Position numbers and translations under genes: made by a program. The notes beneath the pieces are model-generated. The model worked only from the letters and a program-made list of their open reading frames with translations, did not search any database and was not told where the DNA came from. Of a DNA stretch of 64,000 nt, positions 27,243 to 34,681 are shown one piece after another (position 1 is the first letter of the stretch; the number at the start of each line of letters is the position of its first letter). The stretch lies in assembly GCF_003385955.1 (NCBI RefSeq), contig NZ_QRDW01000001.1:665893-729892 (forward strand), given 5' to 3'. The DNA comes from Aestuariispira insulae. Lineage in GTDB: Bacteria > Pseudomonadota > Alphaproteobacteria > UBA8366 > Aestuariispiraceae.

Positions 27243-28022
27243 TTACAACGTGCTGTTAAAACCACCACCGTCTAACAGAATATTTTGTCCCGTCATATAA
27301 CCGCTCTGACGAGAACATAGGAAAGCGCAAGCGGCACCAAATTCCTCAGGATTGCCAAACCGCCTACACGGGTTGTTTTGCATGCGGGTGGCTTTTTCGG
27401 TTTCAAAATCAACACCCTTTTTATCCGCTGCGGCCTGAATGTTGGATGCAAGGCGGTCCGTCTCAAAAGGTCCTGGCAGCAGGTTATTGATCGTCACATT
27501 ATGGGCCGCTGTCTCCCGCGAGAGCCCGGCCACAAAGCCGGTCAAACCGGCCCGGGCACCGTTGGACAGTCCCAGGATCGGAATCGGGGATTTCACCGCC
27601 GCCGAGGTGATATTGACGATCCGGCCAAAGCCGCGATCAATCATCCCGTCCACCACCGCCTTAATCAGGAAAATCGGTGCCAGCATGTTGGCATCCACCG
27701 CCTTGTGCCAATCTTCCTGGTCCCAGTCCCGGAAATTGCCCGGCGGCGGACCGCCCGCGTTATTCACCAGAATGTCCGGTGCAGAACAGGCGGCCAACAG
27801 TTCAGCACGCCCTTCCTCCGTGGTGACGTCACAGGCAACGGCCTTGACCTCCACACCTGTTGCCTCCACTATTTCCTTTGCGGTTTGCGCCAGGGGCTCA
27901 CGCGTCCGGCCATTGATCACAAGATTGACCCCCTCCTCCGCCAGCGCGCGCGCACAAGCCTTGCCCAGCCCTTTTGACGAGGCACAAACAATCGCCCATT
28001 TTCCGGCAATACCCATATCCAT
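27243..28022 (-). CDS. SDR family oxidoreductase
   Basis: A 259-residue short-chain dehydrogenase/reductase. The NAD(P) motif is CASSKGLGKACA near residues 13-24, NNAG is in LVNNAGGPPPGNF, and the catalytic Ser is in NITSAAVKSP. At the usual Tyr-x-x-x-Lys position the sequence reads LSNGARAGLTGF, so both Tyr and Lys appear absent. That pattern is known from a subset of 3-oxoacyl reductase-like SDRs. Substrate unknown; activity by the canonical mechanism is doubtful. Confidence 0.82.
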   Translation of the reverse strand: MDMGIAGKWAIVCASSKGLGKACARALAEEGVNLVINGRTREPLAQTAKEIVEATGVEVKAVACDVTTEEGRAELLAACSAPDILVNNAGGPPPGNFRDWDQEDWHKAVDANMLAPIFLIKAVVDGMIDRGFGRIVNITSAAVKSPIPILGLSNGARAGLTGFVAGLSRETAAHNVTINNLLPGPFETDRLASNIQAAADKKGVDFETEKATRMQNNPCRRFGNPEEFGAACAFLCSRQSGYMTGQNILLDGGGFNSTL

Positions 28023-28101: not shown

Positions 28102-29796
28102 CTATAGCTCCGGTAATTCCCCGGCAGAACGTATGGGATGCACCTGCAATGGTTCCTTGCGCCCGCGCACGGCCATTTCAACCGCCGGGAAAATGCCAAG
28201 GTCAATGCCGACATCCCTTCCGACGCGGTCGGATACCATCAACTGAACATCATGTTCCTTAGCCAGGGATTCCAACCGTGCCGCCGTATTGACCGTATCC
28301 CCGATCGCCGTCACCTGCGTTGCCTGGCCATGCCCCATAGTGCCGACAATGGCCGGTCCCGAATGCACGCCCATCACCAACTTCAAAGGCTGACCCAGTT
28401 CATTTTTCAGCCGCTCATTCAAAATTTCCAGCTGGGCCGCCATTTGCCGCGCCGCAATCAAGGCTGACCGCTTACCAGCCATCGGGTCGCCATCTATGCC
28501 GAACAGCGCCATGATTCCGTCACCAATGAATTTGTCGACCCGCCCGCCCGCATCCTCAATGGCGGTTCCCATGAACCTGAAATATTGGTTCAACAGAAAC
28601 ACCACATCAAAGGGAAGCTTGCTTTCCGATAATTTGGTAAATCCACGCAAGTCTGCAAACATCACCGCGATATCCAGCTCTTGGCCAAGCCTGTAGCGCC
28701 CGCCGGAAAGGGCGTCCCGCGCCGTCACGTCAGCCGGCAACAAGGGTTCACAGCGCAAATCCCCTGTTGGCCGCACCCGGCAGGCCAGTCGGACATTTTC
28801 CGGCATATTCAAATTCGCCAACACCTTTTCCTCAAGCGGATCAGGCGGGGCAAGGGCTTGATCCGCCCCAGCCAGGATCAGGACACGACAGGTGGAACAG
28901 CGTCCCCGCCCCCCACAGACCGAAGCATGGGGAATCCCCCCGGCCCGGCTGGTTTCCAGCAGGGTTGCACCCGGCGGCACCAGCACCCGGCGGCCGCTGG
29001 GATAGGTCACCCGTACCCCCTTGCGTCTGGTATAAAGGGCGATACGCATATAGCGTCCTGCAAAGACCAACAGGATCAGCAAAGCATATCCCCACAGCCA
29101 ATAGTCCCGCATACGGGCAACGAAGAGATCCGCCTCCCCGCCCGGATAGGCAATTTCCTGGAGCATATCAAAGGACCAGATCGGATCCTGGACCAGGGCA
29201 CGCACTTCGAAACCGGCTGAGATGACACCGGCAATCGCCGCGGTCGGAATGATGAGGCATAGGGCATAAAGATGGGCCTGAATACGGGGATACCAGTCCC
29301 GGATTTTAAGCCAATGATGAAGCCCGATACATCCATGCCCCCAGGCCACCACAAGCAAACTCAGCTGCCCAATCAGTTTTTCAGGGGCAAAATGAAAGAA
29401 AATCGCCAGGACATATCGATAATCCGGATCCATGCCATATTGGAGCCGCACCCCGGCGGTTGCCATGGCATGTTCAATCAAGAGTGCCGGTATCAAGAGG
29501 CCCAGCAACAGCTGGCTCCATTGCCAAAGCGGCATGCGCAGGCTGCGGCGAATGAAGGTGACCCACAATGCCGACCCCAAATGGAACAGCACCGCCGCAC
29601 TCAGCAGGAGAATGCCACCAATCGTTGTCCAGAGTTCGATCAGATATTCTTCCGCCAGATTGGCGCTATCCACCGAAACAACGCCCGCGGCATGATTGAT
29701 TAAATGACAGGTGACATAGAAAAACATCACCAACCCGGCGGAAAGATGCCAGAAACGGCGGTTAGTGAGCTGCTTGAAATCCCAATCCGTCACCAT
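28102..29796 (-). CDS. Redox-type adenylate cyclase: cytochrome b anchor, 2Fe-2S domain, class III catalytic domain
   Basis: A 564-residue three-part protein. Residues 15-250 hold about six transmembrane helices with many His (H17, H31, H35, H72, H109, H135, H154, H160, H161), like a haem-binding SdhC/cytochrome b anchor. Residues 262-352 are a 2Fe-2S ferredoxin domain with C294, C300, C303 and C339. Residues 372-555 are the cyclase: D382 (FADLRGFT), D426 (FIGDGIMA), and N503/R507 in TVNTAARLE. This matches the CyaC type described in Sinorhizobium, where quinone redox state controls cAMP. It is the third gene of an operon with a cytochrome c peroxidase. Confidence 0.85.
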   Translation of the reverse strand: MVTDWDFKQLTNRRFWHLSAGLVMFFYVTCHLINHAAGVVSVDSANLAEEYLIELWTTIGGILLLSAAVLFHLGSALWVTFIRRSLRMPLWQWSQLLLGLLIPALLIEHAMATAGVRLQYGMDPDYRYVLAIFFHFAPEKLIGQLSLLVVAWGHGCIGLHHWLKIRDWYPRIQAHLYALCLIIPTAAIAGVISAGFEVRALVQDPIWSFDMLQEIAYPGGEADLFVARMRDYWLWGYALLILLVFAGRYMRIALYTRRKGVRVTYPSGRRVLVPPGATLLETSRAGGIPHASVCGGRGRCSTCRVLILAGADQALAPPDPLEEKVLANLNMPENVRLACRVRPTGDLRCEPLLPADVTARDALSGGRYRLGQELDIAVMFADLRGFTKLSESKLPFDVVFLLNQYFRFMGTAIEDAGGRVDKFIGDGIMALFGIDGDPMAGKRSALIAARQMAAQLEILNERLKNELGQPLKLVMGVHSGPAIVGTMGHGQATQVTAIGDTVNTAARLESLAKEHDVQLMVSDRVGRDVGIDLGIFPAVEMAVRGRKEPLQVHPIRSAGELPEL

Positions 29797-29843
29797 CCGT
29801 CACTCCGCCTGCCTGACCCGGGATCTGGTGCCTGACCAGCCAA

Positions 29844-30305
29844 TCAATCCGCATATTTTCCGGAAAGGCCGCTTTCAATCCGCTCTTTCAATTGCAGAAA
29901 TTCCGGACATTTCACCGCACATGCTTTGCCCAACAGATCCAAATTGGCCCGTGCCTTTTCCGGCTGACCGGTTTCCATATAGAGATGCCCCTGATAGTTC
30001 AGCGCACCGAGATGGGCGGGGTTCACTTTGAGGGCGCGTTCATAATAGCTGGCTGCTTTTTCAACATCACCATCCTTGCGCGCCATGAACCCTAGAAGAT
30101 TCCAGGCGCTGGCATGGGTCGGATAGCGCCTAAGCGTTTCGAGCAACAGGGGCATTGCCTTTTCGAACGCGCCCGCTTTGACAAAAACTTCGGCCTGGTC
30201 ATATTCCGGCACCGGGATCATCTTGCCATCCGGCGTCATGGCAGCCGTCGCCGGGCCGGCCAAAGCCAGAGACAGAAACGCGGCAAGGATTACAGTCTTG
30301 GTCAT
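29844..30305 (-). CDS. Exported TPR protein
   Basis: A 153-residue protein with a signal peptide (LAAFLSLALAGPATA) and about two and a half TPR units: AFEKAMPLLLETLRRYPTHASAWNLL, DVEKAASYYERALKVNPAHLGALNYQ and QPEKARANLDLL. A Cys pair (KACAVKCPEF) near the C-terminus could form a disulfide. It is periplasmic by inference. Its start overlaps the peroxidase stop by 4 nt (ATGA), and the cyclase begins 47 nt after its stop, so it may link the two. Confidence 0.78.
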   Translation of the reverse strand: MTKTVILAAFLSLALAGPATAAMTPDGKMIPVPEYDQAEVFVKAGAFEKAMPLLLETLRRYPTHASAWNLLGFMARKDGDVEKAASYYERALKVNPAHLGALNYQGHLYMETGQPEKARANLDLLGKACAVKCPEFLQLKERIESGLSGKYAD

Positions 30306-31312
30306 GGAATGGGCTGTCCTTCTATCGGAATTGGGTCGCCAACCGGTTGGTCGTCGCTCAGTGTCTTCAAAAACGCGAGTAATTTCAACTTGTCATTCCG
30401 ATCCAGCGCTACCTGCCAGGATTGTTTTTCCGCCATGCCGCATTGGCAATCATAATGGTCCAGCACCTGTTCAAGACTGGTAAATGCACCGTCGTGCATG
30501 AAGGAACTCCGCTCGGCCACATTACGCAGGCCGGGCGTTCTGAAAGCGCCTACCATTAGCGGGTCATTGCGATCATACCGCCCCCGCCCGGGATTCCCCT
30601 TGGCGGTGCCGATATTATGAAACCCGCCATCGCTGAACCGCCACCCGGAATGACAATGTGAACAAGCGGCGCGTCCGGTGAAAAGATAAAATCCCTGTTC
30701 GGCCTCTTTCGATATGGCGTCAGCATCCCCTGCAATCCACCGGTCAAACGCGCTTGGCCCGGTACGAAGGGTGCGCAGGAAAGCCGCTATCGAAAGGCTG
30801 ATACCGCCGAGGCTTACTCCTTCGTCGGGGAAGGCGCGTTCAAACAGCCTTTGATAGCCAGGCACTTCCATAAGTTCATCAACCAGCAAATCCAGATCCT
30901 GCGCCATCTCCTTGGGATGAGCGACGGGCTGTAAGACAAACCCCTCAAGGGTGTCCACCCGGCCATCCCAGGTCAGCGACCGCTGCCAGCCCACATCCAG
31001 CAAGCTCGGCGTTCGCCTGGGTCTCGGCCTGCCATCTGATCCGGATGACACTCCCTTCGGGTCTGCCCAAAAATACTCCGGCTGATGGCAGGAAGCGCAT
31101 GCCATATCATTTCTCGCCGACAAGCGCGGATCGAAGAACAGGTGCCTGCCTAACAGGATTTTATCCGCGCTGGCGGGATTGAAGGCCGAAACCGGATCAA
31201 ACTGGGGCCGCGCAAACACCGTTGACAGCTCCTGTGCCATCAAGACCGCCGGAATGGCGAATAAGCCGATAAATACTGCAGCTGCTGCCAGAACGAACCG
31301 CCTAATAACCAT
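30302..31312 (-). CDS. Di-haem cytochrome c peroxidase (MauG/CcpA family)
   Basis: A 336-residue periplasmic protein: signal peptide (residues 1-26, LAAAAVFIGLFAIPAVLMA) and two CxxCH haem-c sites, C72-A-S-C75-H76 and C217-S-H-C220-H221. The spacing, and LLGRHLFFDPRLS just before the first haem, fit the bacterial CCP/MauG family, which reduces hydrogen peroxide or oxidises partners. The start is uncertain: ATG 31312 gives a normal signal peptide with CGGGAAACCGGAA upstream, while ATG 31336 adds eight residues. It leads the operon with the TPR protein and the redox cyclase. Confidence 0.88.
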   Translation of the reverse strand: MVIRRFVLAAAAVFIGLFAIPAVLMAQELSTVFARPQFDPVSAFNPASADKILLGRHLFFDPRLSARNDMACASCHQPEYFWADPKGVSSGSDGRPRPRRTPSLLDVGWQRSLTWDGRVDTLEGFVLQPVAHPKEMAQDLDLLVDELMEVPGYQRLFERAFPDEGVSLGGISLSIAAFLRTLRTGPSAFDRWIAGDADAISKEAEQGFYLFTGRAACSHCHSGWRFSDGGFHNIGTAKGNPGRGRYDRNDPLMVGAFRTPGLRNVAERSSFMHDGAFTSLEQVLDHYDCQCGMAEKQSWQVALDRNDKLKLLAFLKTLSDDQPVGDPIPIEGQPIP

Positions 31313-31551
31313 ATTTTCCGGTTTCCCGCCCTGCATGATGACAATTGAAGCCGATGTCGATGAATTTTACAAATTGTCCTGGAACCAAATCCGCTCTTTT
31401 CCCTAACAGTATGATCGCACTCTTTATTCCGCATATGGCATATCAATTGCTGGTTCGCCATATATCTTTGAGGATGCAGCCCCCGCTGTCTTATGATCGT
31501 TTAATGCCTGTTTGCGGAAGCTTATGAGGCCGTCTTAGAGAGTATGTTACC

Positions 31552-33666: not shown

Positions 33667-33686
33667 TACTCCGCTAATTCAATTTG

Positions 33687-34403
33687 TTAGAACTTGTCCC
33701 GGTTGCGGTAACTCGCCCCCATGGAAACCCCATCCGACTGCACGATGAAATCATAATGATTGAAACCGGACCGTTCAAAATTCACATCACGCAAATTCAG
33801 CTCAGTTATTCTTTCATCCCCACGTGGGAAAACGATCTTGACCGGATCATCATCCCGGGCAAACAGCATGTTGGGGAAGTTAAGCCCCTTAAAACTGTCA
33901 TCGGGATATTCCCAGGCATTGAAATGGAACTGGCCATTCACACATCCGGAAACCAACCAAAAATAGCTCCCCGAAAACAGACGGCGGCCAACCGGCGCCG
34001 GCGCAGCCAGGCCATCAGTTGCAAAAAGCTTCTCGATCTGAGCGACATCTGCCACCGGCAAAGGCGTGCTATTGTCAGAGGGATCCAACAAAGTGTTTTT
34101 TTCCAACGGCCAGATGGTGGAATTCTGGCTGATCGCATGCTCCAATACACGGGTGCGCAACACCCCGCCCCCCGCATTGGTGGCAACATCATAAATACGG
34201 ACCTGATCTGCCCGATTGGCATTATAGACCGCACGGTAACGGTTGGCCGCACCTGGAACACAGGCCGCTTTGATGTCACCCCCACTGACAAAATCCGTCC
34301 AGGTGGTCTTTCTTTGGAAAATATTGCCGACCTCACCATCGCTGGCACAGCCGGACAACAGTGCCCCGGCAACAGAAATGGCAGCCAATATACGCAAGTG
34401 CAT
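33687..34403 (-). CDS. Lipoprotein of unknown function
   Basis: A 238-residue protein with a lipoprotein signal: LRILAAISVAGALLSGC, lipobox LSGC. The mature part (KTTWTDFVSGGDIKAACVPG, SGSYFWLVSGCVNGQFHFNAWEY) is rich in beta strand and contains two further Cys. No family recognised. ATG 34401-34403 with AAAGGGGTG about 7 nt upstream is chosen over the longer frame to 34457. It is upstream of, and in the same direction as, the phasin gene but probably has its own transcript. Confidence 0.65.
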   Translation of the reverse strand: MHLRILAAISVAGALLSGCASDGEVGNIFQRKTTWTDFVSGGDIKAACVPGAANRYRAVYNANRADQVRIYDVATNAGGGVLRTRVLEHAISQNSTIWPLEKNTLLDPSDNSTPLPVADVAQIEKLFATDGLAAPAPVGRRLFSGSYFWLVSGCVNGQFHFNAWEYPDDSFKGLNFPNMLFARDDDPVKIVFPRGDERITELNLRDVNFERSGFNHYDFIVQSDGVSMGASYRNRDKF

Positions 34404-34681
34404 TTTTTTCACCCCTTTTGGAATTTGCAGCCTCATCACTTCATAACGATGGATCAAGTCTTCATATGGAAGGGACAGACAAAGAAATGGGACTTATTGC
34501 CTATCCGGTCAATATGGCATTTTTTGGTCCTGAACTTGCATAGAAGAATCCGCACATGAAATGAGCCTGAATCATCGGATTTTCGTTAGACCTTCCAGAT
34601 GAAATCCTTTAGAATCGGCTTCGATTCCATGTTTTGGTCGGTTAAGGCTTTATTTAAGGTATTCAGGGTTATTATTTAGGC

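Follow-up and report, generated by a model that had tools for sequence, protein, structure and literature searches.

Organization of the Gene Cluster

In the window, i.e., the complete stretch of 64,000 nucleotides that was analyzed, three neighboring open reading frames on the minus strand encode a MauG-like diheme c-type enzyme (P0003; positions 30302–31336; 344 amino acids counted from the first ATG), a putatively exported TPR protein (P0002; 29844–30305; 153 amino acids), and a CyaC-type class III cyclase (P0001; 28102–29796; 564 amino acids). The diheme gene and the TPR gene overlap by 4 nt (30302–30305) and a gap of 47 nt separates the TPR gene from the cyclase gene, as given in a preliminary description of this DNA. 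That description also placed the boundary of the cyclase gene correctly at 28102, but let the diheme gene end at 31312, which is the next in-frame ATG, the first one being located at 31336. The alternative start at 31312 immediately precedes a leader-like stretch. CRP-type sites were not enriched in the window (18 matches compared to 21.8 expected), and promoter-like and terminator-like matches were left out of the evidence.

Domain Structure of the Cyclase

The cyclase was assigned by Pfam, alignments, and a fold search. Residues 15–257 (29026–29754, minus strand) form a predicted six-helix membrane anchor, as judged by hydrophobicity, alignment, and a structural model: there are six hydrophobic regions, and the model contains six long helices within the first 255 residues. 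Three loops of the anchor, at about residues 38–50, 119–138, and 204–232, are predicted to face the periplasm. Among 43 aligned cyclases, H72, H109, and H154 of this anchor are invariant and H31 and H35 are conserved in ≥90%, and six helices with four histidines that could bind two b-hemes characterize the CyaC type. The membrane domain gave no PDB sequence match even at an E-value of 10, and in the fold searches with the window cyclase the match lists were filled by cyclase domains. Sdh_cyt matched weakly (0.027) in one of the 43 relatives, and the match of the window cyclase to the sdhC_b558 family (0.0014) was far below the family cut-off.

The anchor is followed by a predicted 2Fe-2S ferredoxin-type domain (residues 266–344; 28765–29001, minus strand; Fer2, 5.5e-9). 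Its cysteines C294, C300, C303, and C339 are invariant in sets of 15 and 43 aligned cyclases, and Fer2 was found in all 43, P0001 included. A 2Fe-2S domain between anchor and cyclase is a feature of CyaC, and P0001 has the corresponding predicted domain order; Wissig et al. are said to have described a 2Fe-2S center in Sinorhizobium meliloti CyaC in 2019. The catalytic domain (residues 375–560; 28117–28674, minus strand) matched Guanylate_cyc at residues 375–520 (7.3e-20) and, in the fold search, 1wc1_C (Z 25.6, rmsd 2.2, 187 aligned residues). D382, D426, and R507 are invariant in the 43 cyclases and N503 is present in ≥90%; we take D382/D426 to be the metal Asp pair and N503/R507 to be the Asn/Arg pair, and K422 and T496 presumably fit a class IIIb adenylate cyclase. 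The class III catalytic core is intact, again as in CyaC. The earlier view of P0001 as a His-rich six-helix anchor fused to a 2Fe-2S domain and an intact class III cyclase, resembling the CyaC type, was thus confirmed.

S. meliloti CyaC (SMc01818) combines a six-helix anchor carrying two b-hemes with a class III cyclase domain and is subject to redox/quinone control (PMC10463352), and the window cyclase resembles it in the predicted six-helix anchor, the two-b-heme signature, and the class III domain. The architecture is already known from Sinorhizobium CyaC, and the novelty lies in the gene neighborhood. In S. meliloti, the TetR-type gene cycR precedes cyaC (PMC10463352), whereas the TPR and MauG-like genes take this place in front of the window cyclase gene, and the portion of PMC10463352 consulted names neither a TPR nor a diheme partner of CyaC. 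A literature search, with most subscription journals outside its range, found no paper that brings a cyclase of this kind together with a TPR protein or a MauG-like enzyme.

MauG-Like Features of the Diheme Enzyme

P0003 matched the Pfam family CCP_MauG (4.7e-49) and contains two CXXCH motifs that were also located in the alignment, CASCH (C80–H84; 31085–31099) and CSHCH (C225–H229; 30650–30664, both minus strand). Its initial description as a two-heme CCP/MauG protein was confirmed, but the "cytochrome c peroxidase" of the same description has a MauG-type Tyr and no canonical Met. This residue, Y295 (30452–30454, minus strand), aligns with the axial ligand Tyr294 of MauG, a position occupied by Met in canonical bacterial CCPs, and Tyr was present in all 29 diheme relatives compared. 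Duplicates of the window locus and of L181 were excluded from this alignment set, and the row L111, which is again the window, was not counted. The best match among solved structures was 1iqc (5.9e-43), a canonical bacterial CCP like 4aao, and differs in that one of its Met residues, which we take to be a heme ligand, aligns with Tyr295. A Tyr in the same alignment column was found in PDB 6e1c ("Di-heme enzyme"; 139.6 bits), which is presumably MbnH.

P0003 remained below the cut-offs of both the MauG equivalog (TIGR03791; 250.9 bits, cut-off 443.85) and the MbnH family (TIGR04039; 191.1 bits, cut-off 362.85). With TIGR03791, other TPR-linked proteins scored 298.2, 321.4, and 343.5 bits and unlinked ones 313.8 and 334.2 bits. 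The window enzyme further differs from MauG in having a cyclase as neighbor. Like MauG (TIGR03791) and BthA (PMC6405878), it belongs to the CCP_MauG family and has a Tyr at the predicted six-coordinate heme and an inter-heme Trp, which motif spacing places at W123. Matched by the spacing from this Trp, the MauG positions Gln103, Pro107, and Glu113 correspond to Phe133 (30938–30940, minus strand), Pro137, and Glu143, so that the Gln is missing. This distal Gln is conserved in bacterial CCPs, MauG, and BthA (PMC6405878) and was found in 25 of 30 other diheme homologs, but in none of the seven that are TPR-linked.

In terms of the axial-ligand chemistry given in PMC6405878, the aligned Tyr points to the Tyr–His ligation of the six-coordinate heme that defines MauG, and not the Met–His ligation of the high-potential heme of canonical CCPs; the enzyme is, judged from its residues, MauG-like. 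Because a MauG-type Tyr replaces the canonical Met, oxidative modification of a partner would be at least as likely a function as removal of peroxide.

The Exported TPR Protein

The preliminary description of P0002 as a TPR protein was supported by matches above the cut-off to several TPR families of Pfam (best 6.1e-14) and by a predicted structure (mean pLDDT 86.0) with three TPR helix pairs, i.e., six helices in tandem, and a capping helix. Its leader was judged by eye, and a periplasmic location is probable on this basis. The loop before the capping helix harbors a cysteine pair, CAVKC (C129 and C133; 29907–29921, minus strand), that was recognized in the alignments and the predicted structure. 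In alignments of 15 and of 20 TPR proteins, both cysteines are conserved in every sequence. A set of 75 TPR matches yielded 61 that were distinct and long enough. All 27 cyclase-linked TPR proteins of the class contain a C-x(2-4)-C motif, the class count being based on a Cys-motif filter over a widened stretch that took in 13 further TPR-like matches.

Distribution of the Three Genes

The same trio was found in five genomes of another order and at one additional locus cut by a contig end, which argues against a chance arrangement. In two of the trio genomes (G478 and G669) the cyclase gene is inverted yet adjacent. Among the 317 genomes searched in that order, the six with a cyclase of 53–60% identity are the same six that have a TPR-linked diheme gene, and in the window and these six other genomes the TPR gene is immediately preceded by the MauG-like gene in the same direction. 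The preliminary description had proposed to test whether the three-gene order is conserved across Alphaproteobacteria. Within this clade, the further genomes show that the three genes are not rarely associated, but in the class the three-gene order is rare: the region read around the cyclase gene contained a diheme gene at one of 116 class loci (the window's own), at none of 38 order loci, and at one of 80 named loci. These locus sets overlap and were not summed. The trio was therefore rejected as a general class-wide rule. At the 26 other diheme loci of the class, neither a TPR nor a cyclase gene was present within the 1.5-kb flanks.

Even within the clade the diheme gene is not uniformly preserved. 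In G481 it is decayed, with two in-frame stops and with one heme Cys and the Tyr replaced in a single-frame alignment, and in G423 the first heme Cys and the inter-heme Trp are replaced. Unless these changes are assembly errors, the gene appears to be dispensable in part of the clade.

Linkage of TPR and Cyclase Genes in Alphaproteobacteria

Of the 385 class genomes sampled, 108 contain a relative of the cyclase at an E-value of 1e-80 or better. A profile search across the 385 genomes detected a TPR gene ≤4.5 kb from the cyclase gene at 27 of 116 loci, the window included (18 convergent, 4 divergent, 3 downstream co-directional, and 2 upstream co-directional). The wider association is thus that of TPR and cyclase genes, mostly not co-directional. 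No TPR gene was present in the region read at the other 89 loci, some of these regions ending at contig ends, and in the window's own order the pair was found at 2 of 38 loci. Over 117 loci, TPR was the commonest neighbor family of the cyclase, and no other among the 22 listed families occurred in all four arrangements. Linked pairs are present in, e.g., the cultivable species Kiloniella laminariae (L200) and Reyranella aquatilis (L258). In 26 of the 74 sampled class genomes with both genes, the window's own genome included, the two are ≤2 kb apart, compared to about 0.13 pairs expected by chance for 4-Mb genomes; in 46 of the 74, any TPR match is more than 6 kb away from the cyclase gene. The contig scan covered the best 80 of 570 matches.

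On a quick tree of the cyclases, in which 42 of 111 inner branches are weak and from which five short cyclases were left out, TPR linkage required at least 14 changes, 8 of them forced by starred branches. The shuffled mean was 25.2, i.e., the linked rows are clustered. One locus (L180) was labeled as linked by hand, since its contig begins within the gene and a second contig from that genome breaks off in the trio. Since the trio stays together in relatives and a TPR gene adjoins the cyclase gene in many Alphaproteobacteria, the exported TPR protein may be an unrecognized outside partner of CyaC-type cyclases.

Discussion

We propose a sensing module built around the CyaC-type cyclase. By analogy with S. 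meliloti CyaC, the anchor would carry two b-hemes and respond to quinone, and together with the 2Fe-2S domain it would control how active the cytoplasmic cyclase is. The exported TPR protein would contact this cyclase as a periplasmic partner and give it access to signals from beyond the inner membrane; the TPR groove or the conserved cysteines are the most likely route of this input. Within the window's clade, the MauG-like enzyme from the same cluster would use peroxide or another oxidant to oxidize or otherwise modify the TPR protein, so that the signal would run from a periplasmic oxidant via the modified TPR protein to a changed cAMP level. We regard this reading, with the TPR protein as periplasmic partner and the MauG-like enzyme acting on it in one clade, as plausible, although its probability is somewhat below even. 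In its favor are the linkage of TPR and cyclase genes in several arrangements, the conserved cysteines, the recurrent trio with its co-occurrence in six genomes, and the Tyr and missing distal Gln of the TPR-linked diheme enzymes. Against it count the many class loci without a TPR gene, the scarcity of the pair and absence of the diheme gene in the window's own order, the decayed or altered diheme genes of G481 and G423, and the lack of CRP-site enrichment. The sequences show the gene structure, the residues, the linkage, and the co-occurrence; periplasmic location, heme content, physical contact, signal direction, and action of the enzyme on the TPR protein are inferred. A further-reaching version is doubtful: a MauG-type enzyme would here serve in signaling, with periplasmic peroxide leading to oxidation or other modification of a dedicated two-cysteine TPR protein, which would switch the diheme-b/2Fe-2S cyclase via its anchor and thereby alter cAMP, and many CyaC-type cyclases of Alphaproteobacteria would have the TPR protein as an external subunit. 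Any link to cAMP from peroxide, or from periplasmic electron flow as the preliminary description also suggested, is an inference.

TPR proteins commonly act as scaffolds and chaperones, and P0002 might accordingly be an assembly or stability factor of the cyclase, involved e.g., in folding, heme b insertion, or periplasmic quality control, while the diheme gene, with a role in oxidative stress, would have been added to the cluster in a single clade. The facultative linkage (27/116) and the narrow distribution of the diheme gene, decayed or altered in two genomes, would fit such a role, which we nevertheless consider rather unlikely, as it leaves unexplained why the MauG-like gene is found directly upstream of the TPR gene and co-directional with it in the window and six genomes, why it co-occurs with close cyclases, and why the Cys pair is conserved. 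Alternatively, the genes might have no direct functional link and reflect shared regulation or the slow decay of an ancestral cluster. Most class cyclase loci are unlinked and the linked rows cluster on the tree (14 changes compared to 25.2), but TPR genes occur in four arrangements and other families in one or two (one family, at most, on both strands downstream and upstream), and the inverted yet adjacent cyclase genes of G478 and G669 also speak against this view, which we consider quite improbable.

The diheme-b type histidine signature of the anchor and the adjoining diheme enzyme gene would also suit an electron flow in which the anchor works like a quinol oxidase module, electrons pass from quinol via the b-hemes to the diheme enzyme for peroxide reduction, and the cyclase reports the flux. 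Against this, the exchange of Met for Tyr and the lost distal Gln point away from a canonical peroxidase fed by cytochrome c, the diheme and cyclase genes are separated by the TPR gene alone, without another CXXCH gene, and the studied CyaC is oxidized and reduced by quinone itself (PMC10463352). We consider this electron flow highly improbable.

For the single member of the cyclase family that has been studied, the quinone pool is the controlling factor (PMC10463352). If the proposed partnership of TPR protein and cyclase is true, a conserved exported partner would represent a second input for this family and a possible route from periplasmic conditions to cAMP. A candidate substrate for a MauG-like enzyme would be gained as well; to our knowledge, many such enzymes have no known partner.

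A short-chain dehydrogenase gene (27243–28022) is located downstream of the window cyclase gene and was considered as a fourth member of the cluster. Genes for such dehydrogenases follow the cyclase gene at three order-level loci, and with only 24–28% identity between these and the window's gene this was treated as coincidence.

Gene organization and type of the cyclase

Three adjacent genes of the window are read from the minus strand: a diheme gene assigned to the CCP_MauG family by its Pfam match (30302-31336), a gene for an exported TPR protein that overlaps it by 4 nt (29844-30305; leader judged by eye) and, after a gap of 47 nt, the gene for a 564-residue cyclase (28102-29796). These coordinates agree with the overlap and gap reported in the preliminary description. 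In the own genome, the diheme protein has one match and the TPR protein one match at E 1e-12 or better. The genome also encodes another full-length cyclase with this architecture, 40% identical to the window cyclase; the DNA read on the flanks of this copy contained neither a diheme nor a TPR gene. At 33684-34559 of the window, the two strands carry overlapping long open frames; a lipoprotein-like frame on the minus strand (33687-34457) looks by eye like the real gene.

The hydrophobicity of the cyclase sequence revealed six hydrophobic regions, and by the positive-inside rule both termini are predicted to be cytoplasmic. Among 43 aligned relatives, H72, H109, and H154 were invariant, with H31 and H35 conserved at 90% or more. 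The ferredoxin-type domain carries four cysteines that are invariant in the aligned relatives, and the class III core is intact, its model fitting CyaC of S. platensis (1wc1_C; Z 25.6, rmsd 2.2, 187 aligned). S. meliloti CyaC likewise has a six-helix anchor and a class III cyclase domain, and the original study reportedly described a 2Fe-2S centre in it. The anchor histidines, the ferredoxin-type cysteines and the class III core thus support the earlier proposal that the window cyclase resembles CyaC, and its sequence matches this known type. The anchor of S. meliloti CyaC binds two b-haems, and the activity of this cyclase responds to ubiquinone (PMC10463352). Relatives of the window cyclase at E 1e-80 or better were found in 108 of 385 class genomes. 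In three of 15 aligned cyclases (L010, L043, and the second copy of the own genome, L002 1480-3153), Gln replaces Lys of the purine-binding DKF motif, giving QFNGDG; this exchange may alter substrate or activity.

Pairing of the TPR protein with the cyclase

When the 385 class genomes were searched with both the window TPR and cyclase proteins, both matched in 74. The two genes were less than 2 kb apart in 26 of these genomes and less than 6 kb apart in 28, own genome counted, whereas chance predicts about 0.13 pairs for 4-Mb genomes compared to the 26 within 2 kb. Reading the DNA around all 116 class cyclase matches with a TPR profile revealed linked TPR genes at 27 loci, at 21 of them less than 400 nt away; 18 pairs were convergent, four divergent, and five co-directional (TPR downstream in three, upstream in two). 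In the overlapping named and order-level sets, linkage was found at 19/80 and 2/38 loci, respectively. When the neighbours within 4 kb of 117 cyclase loci were clustered, no family occurred as often as TPR (20 loci), and of the 22 families listed TPR alone was present in all four arrangements. On a quick cyclase tree of 114 rows with a weak backbone, TPR linkage requires at least 14 changes, of which starred branches force eight; for the arrangement of the pair, 16 are required. Since adjacency is constant while arrangement varies, these data argue that the pairing itself is under selection, and against an inherited gene order; the 89 of 116 class loci where the region read yielded no match to the TPR profile count against this reading. 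Overall, the genomic comparison indicates an association of the TPR protein with the cyclase.

In the predicted structure of the TPR protein (mean pLDDT 86.0), three pairs of TPR helices are followed by a capping helix at residues 134-145, and Cys129 and Cys133 lie in the loop that precedes this helix. Both cysteines were invariant in two alignments (15/15 and 20/20 proteins). Of 61 TPR proteins in a larger set, 45 showed exactly the C-x3-C spacing, and in the remaining 16 the paired cysteines are two, four or five residues apart; all 27 linked class TPR proteins contained a C-x(2-4)-C motif.

Genes for a molybdopterin oxidoreductase (PF00174; e.g., L284 1551-2315, L177 150-842) recur near the cyclase at five loci and near unlinked TPR genes at three, and possibly encode another redox partner. 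At two Rhizobium loci and one Phyllobacterium locus (L251, L257, L248), the gene directly after the cyclase encodes about 290 aa and looks alike by eye at all three.

Occurrence of the three-gene cluster

In a scan of genome contigs covering the best 80 of 570 matches, a Rhodospirillales MAG (bin.259, L181) contained the diheme, TPR and cyclase genes arranged as in the window (48, 48, and 58% identity). In a second MAG (OFTM118, L180), one contig begins inside the cyclase and another ends with diheme gene, TPR gene and cyclase start. A search of 317 genomes of these relatives' order with a diheme protein of this group (E 1e-60) matched ten, and in six the TPR gene adjoined. Five of the six include cyclase sequence; G480 reaches a contig end inside the TPR gene. 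The trio is co-directional as in the window in G423, G424, and G481; G478 and G669 carry the cyclase gene in the opposite orientation, convergent with the TPR gene. A cyclase search of the same genomes (E 1e-130) also matched ten, and the six cyclases with 53-60% identity were exactly those of the six TPR-linked diheme genomes. In the other four cyclase genomes (42-44% identity), reading of 1.5-kb flanks revealed neither a TPR nor a diheme match, and the other four diheme genomes had no cyclase at E 1e-130. By eye, the genes flanking the trio differ between L181, OFTM118 and the window.

The three-gene order, whose conservation in relatives the preliminary description had raised, thus recurs and is conserved in one clade, but the diheme gene was absent from the region read at all 38 other cyclase loci of the window's own order, so that its distribution is patchy, by transfer or loss. 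The cyclase type and the diheme enzyme family are already known; neither the TPR-cyclase pairing nor the clade-specific trio was met in the literature searched.

The diheme gene of G481 (L385) contains two in-frame stops and lacks one haem Cys and the axial-position Tyr in a single-frame alignment; the cyclase frame is also broken, the adjoining TPR frame unbroken. G423 has Trp in place of the first haem Cys and Arg in place of the inter-haem Trp. These changes count against the enzyme being essential; as metagenome assemblies are among the sources, assembly error is possible. The first haem motif of the L181/L384 diheme gene reads WASCH (codon TGG) instead of CASCH, which points to c-haem attachment through one cysteine or to an error in the assembly.

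MauG-like features of the diheme enzyme

In the alignments, the haem-ligating Met of N. europaea peroxidase (1iqc) and a Tyr of MbnH (6e1c) stand at the position of Tyr295 of the window diheme protein. This column was Tyr in all 29 distinct diheme relatives compared. Canonical bacterial peroxidases have Met-His and MauG and BthA Tyr-His ligation at this haem, and distal Gln, Pro, and Glu are conserved in all of them (PMC6405878). The window enzyme therefore differs from the canonical peroxidase 1iqc by Tyr in place of Met, and resembles MauG and BthA in the Tyr aligned with the axial position; of the three distal residues, Pro137 and Glu143 are retained, whereas Gln is replaced by Phe133 (matched by spacing). 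It also scored under the NCBIfam cut-offs for both MauG and MbnH. Given these features, the enzyme may function like MauG, yet it is not classed as MauG. Of the former label, CCP/MauG protein, the family assignment stands, and Tyr295 does not fit a canonical cytochrome c peroxidase. The position of MauG Gln103 is occupied by Phe in six and by Val in one of the seven diheme proteins linked to TPR, and by Gln in 25 of the 30 others compared (21/26 and 4/4 in two comparisons), which sets the TPR-linked enzymes apart as a recognisable type. Just past Tyr295, the window protein has two extra cysteines, C297 and C299 (30440-30448), C297 within a two-residue insertion absent from the other 28 distinct aligned rows.

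Proposed mechanism

The cyclase would, by analogy with S. meliloti CyaC, sense the quinone pool via its membrane anchor; the TPR protein would probably expose it to the periplasm. The MauG-like enzyme of the window's clade, whose gene lies directly upstream of the TPR gene and overlaps it by 4 nt in the window, would be best placed to act on the TPR protein, via the Cys pair or an aromatic residue. The output would be cAMP; two proteins of the own genome score above the Crp HTH cut-off.
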